Assembly (NCBI RefSeq): GCF_030546755.1
Contig: NZ_JAUOPE010000006.1
Location: 62,001-126,000, forward strand
DNA: 64,000 bases
Source: Colwellia sp. 1_MG-2023
GTDB lineage: Bacteria; Pseudomonadota; Gammaproteobacteria; Enterobacterales; Alteromonadaceae
Reading direction: 5' to 3'
Under the pieces are notes generated by a model. The model worked only from the letters and a program-made list of their open reading frames with translations. It was not told the DNA's origin and made no database searches. The first letter of the stretch is position 1. Each line of letters begins with the position of its first letter. Below are positions 55,527 to 63,706 of this stretch, piece after piece. The translations under genes and the position numbers were made by a program.

Positions 55527-58500
55527 TTACAGCTCGTTTAGTAATAATTCGACATTTTTTTTAGCATCCCCGTATTCAATATCTTCAATAGAGTCTGCTA
55601 TTTTTCGAGCAATCGTTTGATATTTAGAGTTATTAGTCAATGTTATTAATCTTGGTAATAAATCTTCCACCTCAGCATTTTCTTGTTTGAGAAGTCTATT
55701 TATCGAAATAAGTAATGATTTTAGCTGAGTCGTAAAATATTCCACATTGTTAATCTCTAGCGCTGTATCATCAGTAGTCGTGTCTTTATTGATTACCGAA
55801 TTAATAGCCATTAAAACATTATTTAATTCAATACACGTTGAAGCTACCAATAAGTCAGCTGATTCAGGTTTGGTTTTTAACTGTGCTTCTAAATCGGTTG
55901 CTCGTTTTGTTAATGTCACGGCACCAATATAATTTGCGTTTGATTTTAAAGAATGTGAGATTCTAAAGGCTTCGTCATAACATTTATTTTGATAGATCTC
56001 TCTTAAACCATCAACAGTATCTGCATAATTATGACTAAAATCCTGGACTAACTTTTTGTAAATATGAGTACGTCCACCCATTGCTTGAATCGCTTTTTCT
56101 ACATCTAAAATCGTTAACGTTGAAAGTTCGGTTAAAAAGCTATCTTCATTATCGTTTGGCTGAGTTAAACTAGGACTAGTTGTCAAAGTTTCTATTGGTT
56201 TTATCTCTGCTTTCGTTGTGACTTTCTTCGCTTGAGTTTTACTATCCCCATCTTTTGGTAACCATTTTGATAATAAAACAAATAGTGCATTTGGATCTAT
56301 TGGCTTAGTGAAATAATCATTCATGCCAACATCAAGGCATTTTTGTAACTCTTCTTGCATGGCATGTGCTGTCATCGCAATTATGGGTAAGTCGGCAAAC
56401 TCTATTTGACTACGAATTTCTAGTGTAGCCGTTATGCCATCCATTACGGGCATTTGTAAATCCATCAAAACGATGTCGTATGTTTTTTCTGCTAATTTTT
56501 CTAGGGCTATTTTGCCGTTTTCTGCAACGTCAATATTTGCATGAGTTTCTTCTAAAAATCCTAAAACTACTTGTTGATTTAGCTCATTATCTTCTACGAG
56601 TAAAATATCCGCATGTGATAAATCTAATAAACCTTTTTGCAGACTTTGATAGTGCATATTATTGCTATCAAGTTTTAAAGCTTCCATCATGGCATCTAAT
56701 AAAATAGAAGCATCGACAGGTTTCTCTAAATAACCATCAATTCCAGCCGTTTGAGAAAGCGATATCGCATCACTTTTATCAAATGCTGTCACCATAAGTA
56801 CAGCCGGTAAGTTTTGCTGTTGTATGTTTTCGTTAATAGCATGCGCAAGTTCAATACCATCCATATTTGGCATACGCCAATCTGTTATTACTAAGTCAAA
56901 AGGTTGTTCTGCTAACATGGCTTTATCTATTAGCGTTAACGCAGACATTGCATTATCCGCGGTGGTAATTTTACAACCAAATTGCTCGAGTAAATCAACA
57001 ATAACACTTAAACAAAGTGGGTTGTCGTCCACAACTAGCACGTTAATCCCTTCAATCATTACGCTGTTAGCTTTTATTAATTCACTTTGTGCTACTTCTT
57101 CAAAACCAACACTAAAACCAAAGGTACTGCCTTTGTCTAATTCACTTTGAACCCAAATATCACCATTCATTAACTCGGTTAATTGCTTACAAATTGACAG
57201 TCCTAAACCTGTACCTCCAAATTTACGTGTGATGGTGCTATCCGCTTGATTGAAAGATTGAAATAGATGCTCAATAGAGTCTTCACTTAAACCAATCCCA
57301 GTGTCAGAAACATTAAATTCTATTTGGTTGGTATTTTTTTCACTTAGTTTTACTTCAATTAATACATGACCTTGATTGGTAAATTTAACGGCATTTGTCA
57401 CTAAATTTACTAAAATTTGTTGTAATCGTACTGGATCTGATTTTATTTGTTTCGGTACATTTGGGGCTGTTTTAACAATCAGTTCTAAGCCTTTACTATG
57501 GGCTTTTAATGCGCAAATATTGGCGGTTTTTTTCAATAAACCTTCGATATTCATGATCACAGATTCAATGGTCATTTTACCCGCTTCAATTTTAGAGAAA
57601 TCTAAAATATCATTGATCAGCCCTAATAAAGCTTGCGAAGCATCTTGAGTTTTTTGCACTAAATCTGTTTGATGGCTGTCGAGTTTTGTTTTTAACGTTA
57701 GGTGGCTTAAACCTATAATGGCGTTCATTGGAGTACGAATTTCATGGCTCATTTTTGCTAAAAATTCACTTTTCGCTTGTGTTGCTTTTTCAAGCTCTGA
57801 AGTACGATTAGCTACTTGAAATTCTAAGTTTCGATTGATATCGAGTAAGGTTAAATGATTTTCTACACGTGATAATAGTTCATGTTTCGAAATGGGTTTA
57901 CTTAAATAGTCATTACCACCAACGGCAAAACTTTCAACTAAGTCAATCACTTGGTTTTTGGCGGTTAAAAATATAACCGGGAGTTCATTTACTGAAAACG
58001 ACTTTCGTATAAACTTACATACTTCGTAACCTGACATTTGTGGCATCATGACATCAAGTAAAATTAGATCGAAAGGTCTAGCTTTAATTAAATTACCTTC
58101 ATGATTAATTTGAGCATTAGCTTTTTCAATCATTGCTAGTGCTTGGCTGCCGCTAGAAGCTTCAGAAAGTTGATAACCTAAAAGGTTTAAATGATTGAGT
58201 AATACTTGTCGGTTAATAGGGTCGTCATCAACCACTAAAATATGAAATTTTTGATGTTCAATCGTGAGTTCTTTGTTTTGGTGTAGTTCTTGTTCACTGA
58301 CACTGATGTATTCAATTTCGCTATCTAAATGCTGTAAGCGATTCAATTTTTGTTGATTTGCTAATTTTGCTACATTGGTAACATCGGTAATTTGATCAGC
58401 ATTAATCGGTAAAGTGAAAGTGAAACAACTGCCTTTATTTTCGGTAGAAGTAACTGAAATTGAACCGCCATGTAATTCAACGAGTTGCTTTGTTACCGCT

Positions 58501-61500
58501 AAACCTAATCCAGTACCACTTTGTTGGCGTTGACTATGGCCTTGTAGTTGTTCGAATGAATTGAATATTGCTGATAACTTATTTTCGGCAATACCTATGC
58601 CGGTATCGGTTACCGAAATTTTTATATGCTTATCACTTAAAGCGGCATCAACGGTAACTTCACCTTGTTCGGTAAATTTAATGGCGTTACCAATAAGGTT
58701 ATAGAGAATTTGCTCTAATCGATTTTCATCAGCGTTAACTAAGGGCAGGGTGTTAATCACATTATTTTTTAAGGTGATGGGCTTGTCCCCAATCAAGGGG
58801 GTTGAAACTGTTAGTACTACATCCGTTAAACTATGTAGTTCTACACCGCTGGTATGTAACTTAAGATTTTGATTTTTCATTTTAGAGAAATCAAGAATAT
58901 CATTGACTAGATGCGATAGTCTTTTTCCGCTTGCTACCACCATAGCTAAGTTTTTGTTAGCATTTTCAGGTAATTGGCCTGCAACCCCATCAATTAATGA
59001 CTCTGCTAAACCTATAATGCCATTAAGCGGTGTACGAAGTTCATGGGAAGTATTCGCTAAAAATTCATCTTTTAATTTATCGGCACGGGTTAAACGAATA
59101 TTGATGGCTTGTTCTTTTAATCGTTGGTAGTTTTGGCGGTACAAAATATAACCAATTAAACCGACAAATAAACAAAGGTATATCGTATAAGCCCACCAAG
59201 TTTGCCAAAGTGGGGGTAACACATGCACTTTTAATGACTTACCTTGTTCATTCCAATAACCGTCACCGTTACTGGCCTTAACCCGCAAAGTATAATGCCC
59301 TGCAGGCAAATTGGTATAAGTAGCTCGACGATTTTTAGCGTCGGTGTAAATCCAATCATCGTCAAAACCTTGCAACATATAAGCATATTGATTGTTCATC
59401 GGTTCAGAAAAATGCAGAGCAGAAAATTCAAAGGAAATCAGTTTTTCGTTATACGTTAAGGTTAATTCTTCTAGTTCATTAATCACAGAATCTATCGTGA
59501 AGGTGTCTTTATCTGCACTTTCTCGAGTTAATACGACATGTTCATTATGAACACGAAAATCAGTTAATACGACTTTGGGAGGAGTTAGATCATCAACTAT
59601 ATTTTCAGGATAAAAATGGTTATAACCGTTTGTTCCACCGAAAAACAATTCTCCAGATTGATTTTTAAATGCGGATAGAGAAGCAAATTCTTTTGACTGA
59701 ACACCATCACTTTCATCGTAGTTTTTAAATGTTTCATTAATTGGATCGAACTTTGATAAACCATTATTAGTACTTAGCCATAAAAAACCTTGGTTATCTT
59801 CTAATATGGTGTATATAACGTCATTGGGTAAGCCATCTTTTTCTGTGTAATTAGTAAATTGATTGGTTTTGGGGTTAAGTTTATTTAAACCAGAAAAAGT
59901 ACCTATCCAGAGTATTCCGTTTTTGTCTTCATAAATAGAGGCAATAAAATTACTAGAAATAGAATTTCTATTGTTTTCATCGTGTTTATAATGAGTAAAT
60001 TGATTGGTATTGAGGTTAAATTTATTTAAACCATTATTTTGAGTACCTATCCATAAACTCCCTGTTTTATCTAAATGTAATGCCCAAATATTATTGCCAG
60101 AAAGTGAGTTTTTATTTGATGGGTTATGTTTGTAGTGTTCAAAAGTTTGTTCTTGAATATTAAAGCGGTTTAAACCTCCTCCCCATGTGCCTACCCATAA
60201 AGTGTTATCATCTTGTTGAACAATATCTAATACAGCAGGGTGACTGATACTCTTTTTGTTATTATTTTGATGGTTAAAATGGGTAAAAGTATTAGTTTTA
60301 TTATCAAATAGCGCTAATCCAGCATTAACTGTTCCGATCCAAACACCATTGTTTTCGTCATAAACGAGTTTAGCAAGACTGTCAGAACTGATACTTTTCG
60401 GGTTGTGTGGTTGATGTCTGAAGTGAGTGTATTTGCCATTTGATTTGTTGTATTGGTTTAAACCCGCATCATAGGTACTCAGTAAAAGTTTGTCATCAGG
60501 TAGTAAAGCAAACCCCATTACCGTATTGCTGCTTAATGTGTTTTCGCTACCTTTTACTTGATTGATATGATTAAATTGTTCATTATTTAATTCATATTTA
60601 TCCAACCCATATATAAAATTTCCAATCCAAATGTTGCTCGATTTATCAGCAATAATGGTTGTTATTTGATTATGGCCTATGCTATTTGGGTTAGCATCAT
60701 TTGCTTGAATTAATTGCACATCATTTGTAATAAAACTATATCTAATAATACCTTTAGTTTGTGTACCTACCCACAACTCATCATTATGAAATAGAAAACT
60801 ATTAATCTGTTTATTGTTAAATAATTGAGAAAATTCACTGTTTGTTTTAATTAAACTCTGCTGGATATCGTATAAAATTACTCCGTTTTTTGTTCCTATC
60901 CATAATTCACTTTTATGAACTGCAAGCGTTGTAATATTATTATTGTTGATTACAGGGGTGAGCTTTTGAGTGTTAACATTAAGCTTTAAAAGTCCGTTCT
61001 TTTTTGTTGCTATCCATAAATTATTTTGATCATCAATTTGTAATGCTTGTATCGTTGAATCTGGTAATAAATGTGTAAAGTTACTGCCATCAAAGCGGTT
61101 TAGACCTTTTTCTGTGCCAATCCAAATAGTATCTGTAGGGTCTAATACCATACTGTTGATCACATTATTACTTAAACTATTTATGTTAGTAGGGATATGA
61201 GTGAAGGTCGTAAAATCATTATTTTTTTTATTGAAACGGTTTAGTCCCGATATCGTTCCAACCCAAATATTATTGTTTTTATCTTCGATCAAAGAGTTAA
61301 TGTTGCTACTTGAAAGCGAATTTGTATTTTCTAAATCACTTTTATAAACAGTAAAATTATAGCCGTCAAACCGATTTAAACCGTCACCGGTTCCTACCCA
61401 TAAATATCCCTGTTTATCTAAGAGTAGTGTCTGCACTGACGCTTGAGAGAGTCCTTCCTCTCTATCGTAATGATCTACATAAAAATCTTTTGCGAATAGA

Positions 61501-61556
61501 GGCTTTACAAATATATTTAGACAGAGAATGACTAATAGTATTAATTTTAGGTGCAT
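55527..61556 (-). CDS. Giant propeller hybrid histidine kinase (two kinase modules, three receivers, HPt)
   Basis: 2009-residue membrane sensor. After a signal peptide (1-22) comes a periplasmic two-component-regulator propeller of repeated blades (WIGT.xGLNRFD pattern, about 25-665), a Y_Y_Y domain (about 690-775) and one transmembrane helix (about 786-806). The cytoplasmic part holds HisKA+ATPase 1 (His838), receiver 1 (Asp1168), HisKA+ATPase 2 (His1271), receiver 2 (Asp1559), receiver 3 (Asp1699) and an HPt domain (His1868). All phospho-sites and G boxes ([18 protein letters not shown]) are intact. Propeller sensors often detect carbohydrates or other polymers, but the ligand is unknown here. 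A diguanylate cyclase lies downstream, and the peptide/oxidase cluster is divergent from its 5' end. Confidence 0.95.
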
Positions 61557-61670
61557 TGAACTGCCTTTCGATTTTTATTTAATTAGGAAGATAGTTATAT
61601 AAGGGGTAGCTTAAAGTTAATCTAATATTTCGACAAGCTATAATTTAATCTACATAGAATTAAGAAACAC

Positions 61671-61700
61671 TTGACATTATTTTAACATAAAAACTATGCT
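61671..61700 (+). promoter_or_regulatory. Sigma-70-type promoter of the peptide/oxidase operon
   Basis: Perfect TTGACA (61671-61676), an 18-bp spacer and TATGCT (61695-61700), 94 bases upstream of the small peptide start. The kinase promoter must lie in the same 237-base divergent region. Confidence 0.65.
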
Positions 61701-61793
61701 GTATCGGTTCGCTAAATACAGTTGTTTTTAATTAACTTATTTAAAGCAACAAGATACCAAGTTTTTGTTTATACACTATTTTAAGGAAAGAAC

Positions 61794-61973
61794 ATGTCCA
61801 ACAAAAGTAATACTGAATATTTACATGATGAAGGCGTACTAAATAAAAGTGACCTAAGTACAGAGCATGTGGAAGCTATTGACAGTTTATCAAAATTAGA
61901 AGTTGAGCAGTTAAAATCAATACATGACAATGCAAATAAGGATAAGGATCAACCGGTCGGAATATTCGTTTAA
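61794..61973 (+). CDS. 59-residue acidic peptide, candidate RiPP precursor
   Basis: Small gene with an excellent ribosome site (AAGGAAAG, 3 bases before ATG). The peptide begins MSNKSNTEYLHDEGVLN. Its middle is a predicted amphipathic acidic helix (about 20-45, with EHVEAIDSLSKLEVEQL), and it ends in a short tail DQPVGIFV after a Lys/Asp stretch. There are no Cys, no signal peptide and no membrane segment. Its stop codon overlaps the oxidase start (TAATG), tying their translation together. A helical acidic leader with a short tail beside a diiron oxidase and a cysteine protease is what a ribosomally made, post-translationally modified peptide would look like; the function is inferred. Confidence 0.7.
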   Translation: MSNKSNTEYLHDEGVLNKSDLSTEHVEAIDSLSKLEVEQLKSIHDNANKDKDQPVGIFV

Positions 61974-62677
61974 TGGTAAACAATATAGTTGCTCAATCAT
62001 TTTATGAGCGATTAAGTAAAAACTTGCATTTACTTGAATTAAAAGCTTGTGATGTAAATGCTCGTTTTTTTGAGTTAGCTACTCATTCAGAAGTTATTGT
62101 TGAACAATGTTTGACCAATTATAGAACTTCAAATGCAGCTGTTCCTATGATGAGGGAAGTCATTCGTTGTGCTAAGTTAATGCCTGATGATCCTGTTTCT
62201 GCTCCATTAATCAAATATATGGAACAGCATATTCCTGAAGAAACCGGTCATGACCAATGGTGTATAGATGATCTGGCTGTTTTAGGAGTAACAGAAGAAC
62301 AAATCCATTCAAAAATTCCATCGCCTAATATAATGGCACTGATAGGAAGCCAATACTATATGATACGCCATCAACATCCGGTAGCAATTATGGGGTATTT
62401 AGCTTGTTTAGAAACTCATCCACCAACGATTGAATATGTTGAAGGATTAATTGAAAAATCAGGCCTTCCTGCAGCAGCTTTCAGCGGATTAATGCATCAT
62501 GCCAAAATTGATCCTCATCATAAACAAGATATTATTAACACGTTAAACAGTCTACCGTTAACAGAAAAACAATATCAGCTTGTTGAACGAAGTGCTTTTC
62601 TTTCATTACGTTATGTTGCTTTGATGATGGAAGATGTCTGTAAGGCAGCACCGGTTGACTCCCTTGTTTCAATATAA
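61973..62677 (+). CDS. Heme-oxygenase-like diiron oxidase (iron-containing redox enzyme family)
   Basis: 234-residue all-helical cytosolic enzyme. The HDO-type ligand pattern is visible: EETGH (Glu90, His93), then Glu147 in LETH, and the HxxxDxxH motif formed by His176, Asp180 and His183. Relatives oxidise amino acids, fatty acids or peptide residues with O2 (for example decarboxylation, N-oxygenation). Its start overlaps the peptide stop by one base, which strongly suggests that the peptide is a substrate or partner. Weak likeness to PqqC-type proteins is possible. A terminator follows. The specific reaction is unknown. Confidence 0.8.
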   Translation: MVNNIVAQSFYERLSKNLHLLELKACDVNARFFELATHSEVIVEQCLTNYRTSNAAVPMMREVIRCAKLMPDDPVSAPLIKYMEQHIPEETGHDQWCIDDLAVLGVTEEQIHSKIPSPNIMALIGSQYYMIRHQHPVAIMGYLACLETHPPTIEYVEGLIEKSGLPAAAFSGLMHHAKIDPHHKQDIINTLNSLPLTEKQYQLVERSAFLSLRYVALMMEDVCKAAPVDSLVSI

Positions 62678-62695
62678 GGTTTTTATTGGTTTATT

Positions 62696-62720
62696 AAGAG
62701 CATATTAATGCTCTTTTTTT
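62696..62720 (+). terminator. Strong terminator between the diiron oxidase and the C1 protease
   Basis: AAGAGCAT / ATGCTCTT, 8-bp stem with a four-base loop, followed by TTTTTTT. It separates the peptide-oxidase pair from the protease gene, 24 bases downstream, so the protease must be expressed by read-through or by another promoter. Confidence 0.85.
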
Positions 62721-62743
62721 ATGTTTGATTTAAAGGCTAACTT

Positions 62744-63706
62744 ATGGAAATTATTCATCAACGAACCTTAATACCTGATCCTCATGATGAAAGAGATCAT
62801 CAGTTTTGTGACATTCACGGTGAAAACGCTTCAGAGTTTTGTCAGTTAACTTGTCGTATAAAAATTCAAGAAAAATTAGCCTCTTATACGTTAAGTCAAG
62901 TTGATTTAAGACCTCAATTAACCTCAGAAATCATTAATCAAGGTTTACTCAATTCATGTTCTGCATGCGCCATTGCCGTTGCGTCAGAGCTATATTTAAT
63001 AAAAGATCAGCAACCATTTATCGACGAAAATGCTTCAAATATTGACGCTTCACAAATGTTTGTTTATTACAATGAACGAGTAATGGAAGATAAAGTAGAT
63101 ATTAATGCTCCCGTTTATATTCGTAATGGCATTAAGTCTTTATTTAAACATGGTATTTGCTCTGAAAAGTCTTGGCCATACCCTGAAATGATGTTGCCAG
63201 AAAGTTTAAAAACTGTGGTGGCGAATGGCACGATGGAAGAAATGCAGCAAGAATTAACTCGCGTGATGACAGAGCATCAAGCAGAGATTCAAGCGGCAAT
63301 TAAAGAAAAACCCTCCAAAGCAGCGGTCACACAAGCAAAAAAGCACATTATTAATCGTTATTGTAAACTGAATGAAGAAGATGATTTAGCTGAATTAAGG
63401 TTAGCTTTATCAAAAGGGTTACCAGTGATATTTGGCATGATGGTACCTAAAAGTTTTTATGCTATAGGTAGCGACGGGGTAATGACAATGCCGGATACAG
63501 ATGAACCAAGGTTAGGTGGTCATGCTTTATTAGCCGTTGGTTATGATGATGATAGAAAAGTGTTTATTGTCCGTAATTCTTGGGGAGAAGAATTTGGCGA
63601 TAAAGGTTATTGTTATATGCCGTACGAATTTTTTAGCAGTGGTTACATATCAAATGGCAAGAACCAAGAGAATACCTTTAGTTATTGGTGCTTAACTCAC
63701 GAATAA
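62744..63706 (+). CDS. Cytoplasmic papain-family (C1) cysteine protease
   Basis: 320 residues, no signal peptide and no pro-segment of the cathepsin type. The active site is complete: oxyanion Gln66 (NQG), catalytic Cys72 in NSCSACA, His259 in GGHALLAVGYD and Asn277 in RNSWGEEFGDKGY. An extra charged helical insert (about 155-215, EEMQQELTRVMTEHQ) sits between the Cys and His halves. Intracellular C1 proteases are uncommon in bacteria; in some peptide-natural-product clusters (polytheonamide, from memory) a C1 protease trims the leader. Its place after the 59-residue peptide and the diiron oxidase suggests a maturation role, though it is beyond a terminator. Confidence 0.9.
   Translation: MEIIHQRTLIPDPHDERDHQFCDIHGENASEFCQLTCRIKIQEKLASYTLSQVDLRPQLTSEIINQGLLNSCSACAIAVASELYLIKDQQPFIDENASNIDASQMFVYYNERVMEDKVDINAPVYIRNGIKSLFKHGICSEKSWPYPEMMLPESLKTVVANGTMEEMQQELTRVMTEHQAEIQAAIKEKPSKAAVTQAKKHIINRYCKLNEEDDLAELRLALSKGLPVIFGMMVPKSFYAIGSDGVMTMPDTDEPRLGGHALLAVGYDDDRKVFIVRNSWGEEFGDKGYCYMPYEFFSSGYISNGKNQENTFSYWCLTHE

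Follow-up and report, generated by a model that had tools for sequence, protein, structure and literature searches.

Heme-oxygenase-like diiron oxidases (HDOs) are a fast-growing enzyme superfamily, and among them UndA and BesC perform oxidative decarboxylation or desaturation on small molecules. The substrates of the HDOs UndA, CADD, BesC, AetD, and MboA are fatty acids, free amino acids, or a residue of the enzyme itself. For the action of an HDO on ribosomal peptides, one genetic precedent was found in the literature searched, namely VarO, which acts in thiovarsolin RiPP biosynthesis and whose deletion mutant lacked the dehydrogenated forms (PMC6511847). An oxidase of this kind has also been published in YcaO/TfuA clusters of Sinorhizobium (PMC8120280).

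Here, a 64,000-nucleotide stretch of Colwellia sp. 1_MG-2023 (the window) was analyzed, in which a small gene, an HDO gene, a C1 protease gene, and the gene of a B12-binding radical-SAM RiPP maturase lie together. We consider it likely (probability roughly 0.8) that these genes form a RiPP biosynthesis locus with a new family of precursors, in which the peptide would be tailored by the oxidase and the maturase and trimmed by the protease. If true, marine Alteromonadaceae-like bacteria would have a new family of RiPP precursors.

The thiovarsolin locus resembles the present one in that a heme-oxygenase-like oxidase is encoded beside a RiPP precursor (the two were compared by description). However, it carries YcaO/TfuA, ATP-grasp, and amidinotransferase genes and repeated cores, whereas the present locus has a B12 radical-SAM enzyme, a C1 protease, and a single short C-terminal tail. 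A thiovarsolin-type thioamidated RiPP was rejected, since the genes conserved across the loci include neither YcaO nor TfuA. A Sinorhizobium fredii megaplasmid cluster (L042:5997-9546) is of the published Sinorhizobium kind and encodes an oxidase, a 67-aa peptide, YcaO, and TfuA. Its oxidase is the closest one outside the family among plasmids (34%), but YcaO and TfuA take the place of the radical-SAM enzyme, and the leader match of the 67-aa peptide is very weak (E 0.13). Rhizobial TIGR03975 relatives, 35-38% identical to the maturase, adjoin other RiPP genes; the neighborhoods read held a Nif11-type precursor or radical-SAM epimerases, without the present oxidase.

According to the preliminary description, no family with the trio of peptide, oxidase, and protease is known to have been described. 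No publication on the present combination, precursor family, or tail was found, with most subscription journals outside the literature searched, and searches joining RiPP, HDO, precursor peptide, and leader, or for "aroma-sacti", likewise returned none; for TIGR03975, two survey papers were found. An HDO in a RiPP pathway, in contrast, is less new, given the precedent of VarO and the published Sinorhizobium clusters. Overall, the locus would represent a real, new family of RiPP gene clusters whose enzymes are of known kinds.

Organization of the locus

The following features were assigned.

55527..61556, minus strand: hybrid sensor kinase, 2009 aa, divergent from the peptide gene and syntenic in orthologous loci
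61671..61700, plus strand: promoter TTGACA-18-TATGCT of the peptide-oxidase pair, a 10-of-12 match with equivalents at orthologous loci
61794..61973, plus strand: putative precursor peptide gene, 59 aa, with 17 homologous peptide-oxidase pairs, purifying selection, and NF045560 matches
61953..61970, plus strand: codons of the conserved tail P-V-G-I-F-V, candidate core, with Gly at -4 invariant and V/I/L/F last
61973..62677, plus strand: heme-oxygenase-like diiron oxidase (PF14518, E 3.3e-13), 234 aa, translationally coupled to the peptide
62696..62722, plus strand: intrinsic-terminator-like hairpin between oxidase and protease (hairpin 62696-62715 plus a T run)
62744..63706, plus strand: papain-type (C1) cysteine protease (PF00112, E 4.5e-14), 320 aa
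63765..64000, minus strand: B12-binding radical-SAM RiPP maturase TIGR03975, 3' part; the gene runs past the window end

The small gene, the oxidase, and the protease were found where the preliminary description had placed them, including the ribosome site of the 59-codon gene (TAAGGA) and the one-base stop/start overlap with the oxidase (TAATG at 61973). However, the trio that it had proposed proved to be an incomplete set, to which the TIGR03975 enzyme also belongs. The maturase gene (645 aa) converges on the protease gene. Only the last 77 maturase codons are inside the window, and the gene continues as far as what would be window position 65702 (G000:C28:125765-127702; L035:3766-5703). The terminator-like hairpin separates the oxidase from the protease, so the peptide, oxidase, and protease need not form one operon.

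Conservation of the peptide

A profile survey of the family was used instead of a sequence-pattern scan of genome contigs, which gave one relative only. Among 297 genomes of the family, a close oxidase (E<1e-80) was present in 15, and the peptide lay directly 5' of it in all 15, although these genomes share ancestry and such co-occurrence counts are not phylogenetically independent. Because two genomes hold two pairs each, the 15 genomes contain 17 peptide-oxidase pairs. At the level of the order, a search of 395 genomes gave the peptide in three genomes, exactly those with a close oxidase. The reading frame was kept in all 17 pairs, and comparison with Thalassotalea sp. G2M2-11 gave pS 0.73 and pN 0.21, indicating purifying selection (dN<<dS). 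A chance ORF was thereby ruled out. The constant position 5' of this oxidase subfamily, which the preliminary description had proposed to check, was thus confirmed, and the broken frame that would have spoken against its reading was not seen.

The peptide consists of a leader (residues about 1-45), a variable linker (about 46-51), and the C-terminal tail DQPVGIFV. In an alignment of the 16 distinct peptides, L10, H11, K18, I29, L32, S33, E36, and G56 were invariant, and every peptide ended in G-(I/V/A/L)-x-(V/I/L/F). The tail earlier suggested as the core is therefore a conserved C-terminal element, with Gly at -4 and a hydrophobic last residue. The leader aligned with the RiPP leader domain NF045560 in 16/16 peptides (best E 2.8e-7; window copy 1.3e-4). 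Three peptides scored singly lay below the curated cutoff of 30 bits (window, 22.1; Thalassotalea, 19.9; G322, 28.1), suggesting that the leader is related to this domain but distinct, and it was not filed as a member. Although the leader can thus be aligned with those of the aroma-sacti (NF045560) or StsA-type sactipeptides, the present peptides differ from them in their tails and in their B12-type maturase. No cysteine occurred in any of the 16 tails, and a sactipeptide, which needs a cysteine in the core, was rejected. In sum, the small gene has the leader, variable linker, and conserved tail of an encoded RiPP precursor, with a leader-domain match below threshold.

Oxidase, protease, and maturase

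The preliminary description had listed a full set of likely iron ligands in the oxidase (ExxH, Glu147, HxxxDxxH). All six residues (E90, H93, E147, H176, D180, and H183) were invariant in 19/19 relatives, corresponding to the three-His/three-carboxylate ligand set of HDOs. An AlphaFold2 model (pLDDT 94.2) had the heme-oxygenase fold. Its nearest structural match was 3dde (Z 23.0, rmsd 2.6 over 217 residues), and CADD (Z about 20) and UndA (Z 19.4) were among many others of that fold. The oxidase thus resembles UndA, CADD, BesC, AetD, and MboA in predicted fold and ligand set; its sequence identity to the solved ones among these is 12-20%. The modeled fold on its own leaves the reaction unspecified. 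In a search across the phylum, the best oxidases outside the family had E values of about 1e-20 to 1e-22. No relatives of the peptide, maturase, or protease were present within the fetched flanks of these loci, and in those read the neighbors were AMP-ligase and short-chain dehydrogenase genes. A generic oxidase was rejected on this basis.

The protease belongs to the C1 family (PF00112, 53.5 bits against a cutoff of 20.7) and has no obvious signal peptide. Its catalytic residues were invariant in 10/10 members; Gln66 and Cys72 are as earlier described, and the remaining two, given as His259 and Asn277, are one position further on (H260 and N278). The closest solved relative is 3ois (E 2.6e-47 to the protease profile), a papain-like cysteine protease with, to our knowledge, no RiPP role. 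The AlphaFold2 model of the protease was poor (pLDDT 53) and was left out of the analysis. The protease subfamily was present in all 15 genomes with the peptide-oxidase pair, unlinked in the five g16 genomes. In a 119-genome sample, matches at E<1e-85 were confined to 11 genomes with the pair, including unlinked cases, and a generic protease was ruled out by this restriction. Neither the oxidase nor the protease subfamily was widespread without the peptide; a wide occurrence without it would have contradicted the earlier reading. One g16 genome (G510) carries a 75-codon protease relic (L110:7770-7997, minus strand) near an intact peptide-oxidase pair and another protease copy elsewhere in the genome.

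The match of the maturase to NCBIfam TIGR03975 (RiPP maturation radical SAM C-methyltransferase) is full length and scored 663 bits (cutoff 281.85, E 4e-199), and 14/15 genomes with the pair encode such an enzyme, so that a known kind of RiPP maturase accompanies the precursor candidate. Radical_SAM and B12-binding matches were obtained in 13/13 members, the B12-binding match of the window copy being under the Pfam gathering score. At the maturase C terminus, weak PqqD-like matches (best E 0.013 in one member; 0.48 in PDB) are suggestive only of such a domain. Among 116 genomes of the family, the maturase occurred in 11 with the peptide-oxidase pair and in two others (G411 and G444). In one genome, it lies 78 kb from the rest of the locus, and in G511 (L062), rated 100% complete, the peptide, oxidase, and protease are present with no TIGR03975 maturase; its role could therefore be facultative.

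Both G411 and G444 also have a more distant oxidase, together with a peptide of 86-94 residues whose leader is of the NHLP RiPP type. These peptides (L067:3629-3910, minus strand; L068:3696-3953, plus strand) end in RTSLKIT. With a related oxidase and a maturase of the same type next to them, they constitute a second class of precursor for the two enzymes.

Pairing of peptides with oxidases

Peptides ending in V/I/L are coupled to their oxidase genes (-1 to 15 nt), and those ending in F are separated from them by gaps of 79-92 nt. In the oxidase tree, the oxidases of F-ending peptides fell outside a group of 13 serving V/I/L tails (support 86/91, drawn open). Pairwise, tail similarity correlated with oxidase identity at rho 0.57, compared with 0.23 for maturase identity. 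For whole peptides, the partial correlation was 0.42 with the oxidase (reached in 24/2000 permutations) and 0.11 with the maturase (259/2000). Against G415, from the window's own genus, the protease was 83% and the maturase 73% identical, compared with 45% for the oxidase and 36% for the peptide, as if the latter two had been swapped as one unit. Furthermore, two genomes run two peptide-oxidase pairs with a single maturase. From these comparisons, with the tail type following the oxidase subtype more than the maturase, we consider a RiPP locus with a peptide-specific oxidase and a shared maturase very likely.

Proposed pathway and alternative explanations

The RiPP-like locus of the preliminary description gains support from the conserved frame, the peptide-linked oxidase and protease subfamilies, the leader match, and the RiPP maturase. 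We infer the substrate, the reaction, the order of steps, the cleavage site, and the biological role as follows. The small gene would encode a precursor whose leader is conserved and whose tail, about six residues long, ends in (V/T/A)-G-(I/V/A/L)-x-(V/I/L/F)-COOH. The oxidase, as the dedicated partner of each precursor, probably oxidizes a tail residue with O2 (desaturation, hydroxylation, or C-C cleavage). C-methylation of a feature shared by all precursors is probably the task of the TIGR03975 B12 radical-SAM enzyme, which may hold the leader via a PqqD-like C-terminal domain. The C1 protease then probably cuts off the leader, freeing a short modified peptide. With 17 candidate natural substrate-enzyme pairs, two tail types, VGI-x-(V/I/L) and TG-x-x-F, a common radical-SAM partner, and a matching protease, the recognition and alteration of a gene-encoded peptide by the oxidase would be directly testable.

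The divergent hybrid sensor kinase is probably a regulator. It contains a Reg_prop/Y_Y_Y sensor, two kinase cores, three receivers, and an Hpt domain, and relatives of both it and a neighboring GGDEF response regulator are syntenic at 13 loci. As an addition to the pathway above, we tentatively suggest that the product is a signal read by this kinase and relayed to the GGDEF regulator, making the locus part of a signaling circuit, not an antimicrobial one. In line with this, no exporter or immunity gene was conserved near the orthologous loci, and full-length kinase orthologues outside the genomes with the pair were found only in G446 and G449, both fragmented, with contigs ending at the kinase. 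However, the kinase may do no more than control expression, propeller-type sensors like its own are widespread in the family (many partial matches), and a ligand role for it is hypothetical. If the suggestion is true, the locus would perhaps provide a sensor kinase with a modified peptide as its signal. A more specific and more doubtful version is that the oxidase acts on the C-terminal residue, which is V, I, L, or F in every case and keeps a constant spacing to the invariant Gly, by, for example, oxidative decarboxylation or desaturation, which together with C-methylation would give a tiny, doubly modified, C-terminally altered peptide signaling to the divergent kinase and the c-di-GMP regulator.

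It is unlikely that the peptide is instead a small partner of the oxidase (an activator, chaperone, or regulatory subunit), with the oxidase acting on a free small molecule and the protease and radical-SAM enzyme serving a neighboring pathway. Such a partner would fit the strictly one-to-one, coupled pairing and the location of most of the conserved peptide residues in the leader-like part, and most characterized same-fold oxidases act on small molecules (PMC13108848). However, it would leave aside the extreme C-terminal tail, which with its invariant Gly lies beyond a variable linker and resembles a leader plus core, the match of the peptide family to a RiPP leader domain, and the almost perfect co-occurrence of a RiPP maturase and the matching protease. 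Related oxidases also adjoin other RiPP-leader-type peptides (G411/G444) and, in S. fredii, a peptide, YcaO, and TfuA. Very improbable is a pearlin-like scaffold, in which the peptide would carry amino acids that are added to its C terminus, modified, and released as a small molecule: a C terminus that is short, hydrophobic, and constant in position would suit it, as would the presence of an oxidase and a protease, but no LanB-like amino-acid ligase is among the conserved genes, and the tail is genetically encoded and conserved. The RiPP precursor reading is thus preferred.

Promoter and upstream motifs

The promoter reported in the preliminary description (TTGACA-18-TATGCT at 61671-61700) was the sole 10-of-12 match in the region, but promoter-like matches there were not in excess (7 observed vs 11.2 expected from shuffles). 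Because an equivalent element, TTGAC(A/T)-18-TAT(G/T)CT, was found 5' of the peptide at most orthologous loci (partly by eye), the promoter is considered to be more than chance. By eye, TTGACA-18-TATGCT was also seen in G449 (L108:1-430) upstream of the kinase orthologue, with no peptide before the contig end. Farther upstream, before the promoter (window about 61630-61650), there is a motif resembling ACAAGTnATAATTT, which may be a regulator site; similar motifs were also observed in the upstream regions of L036, L037, L055, L059, and L060.
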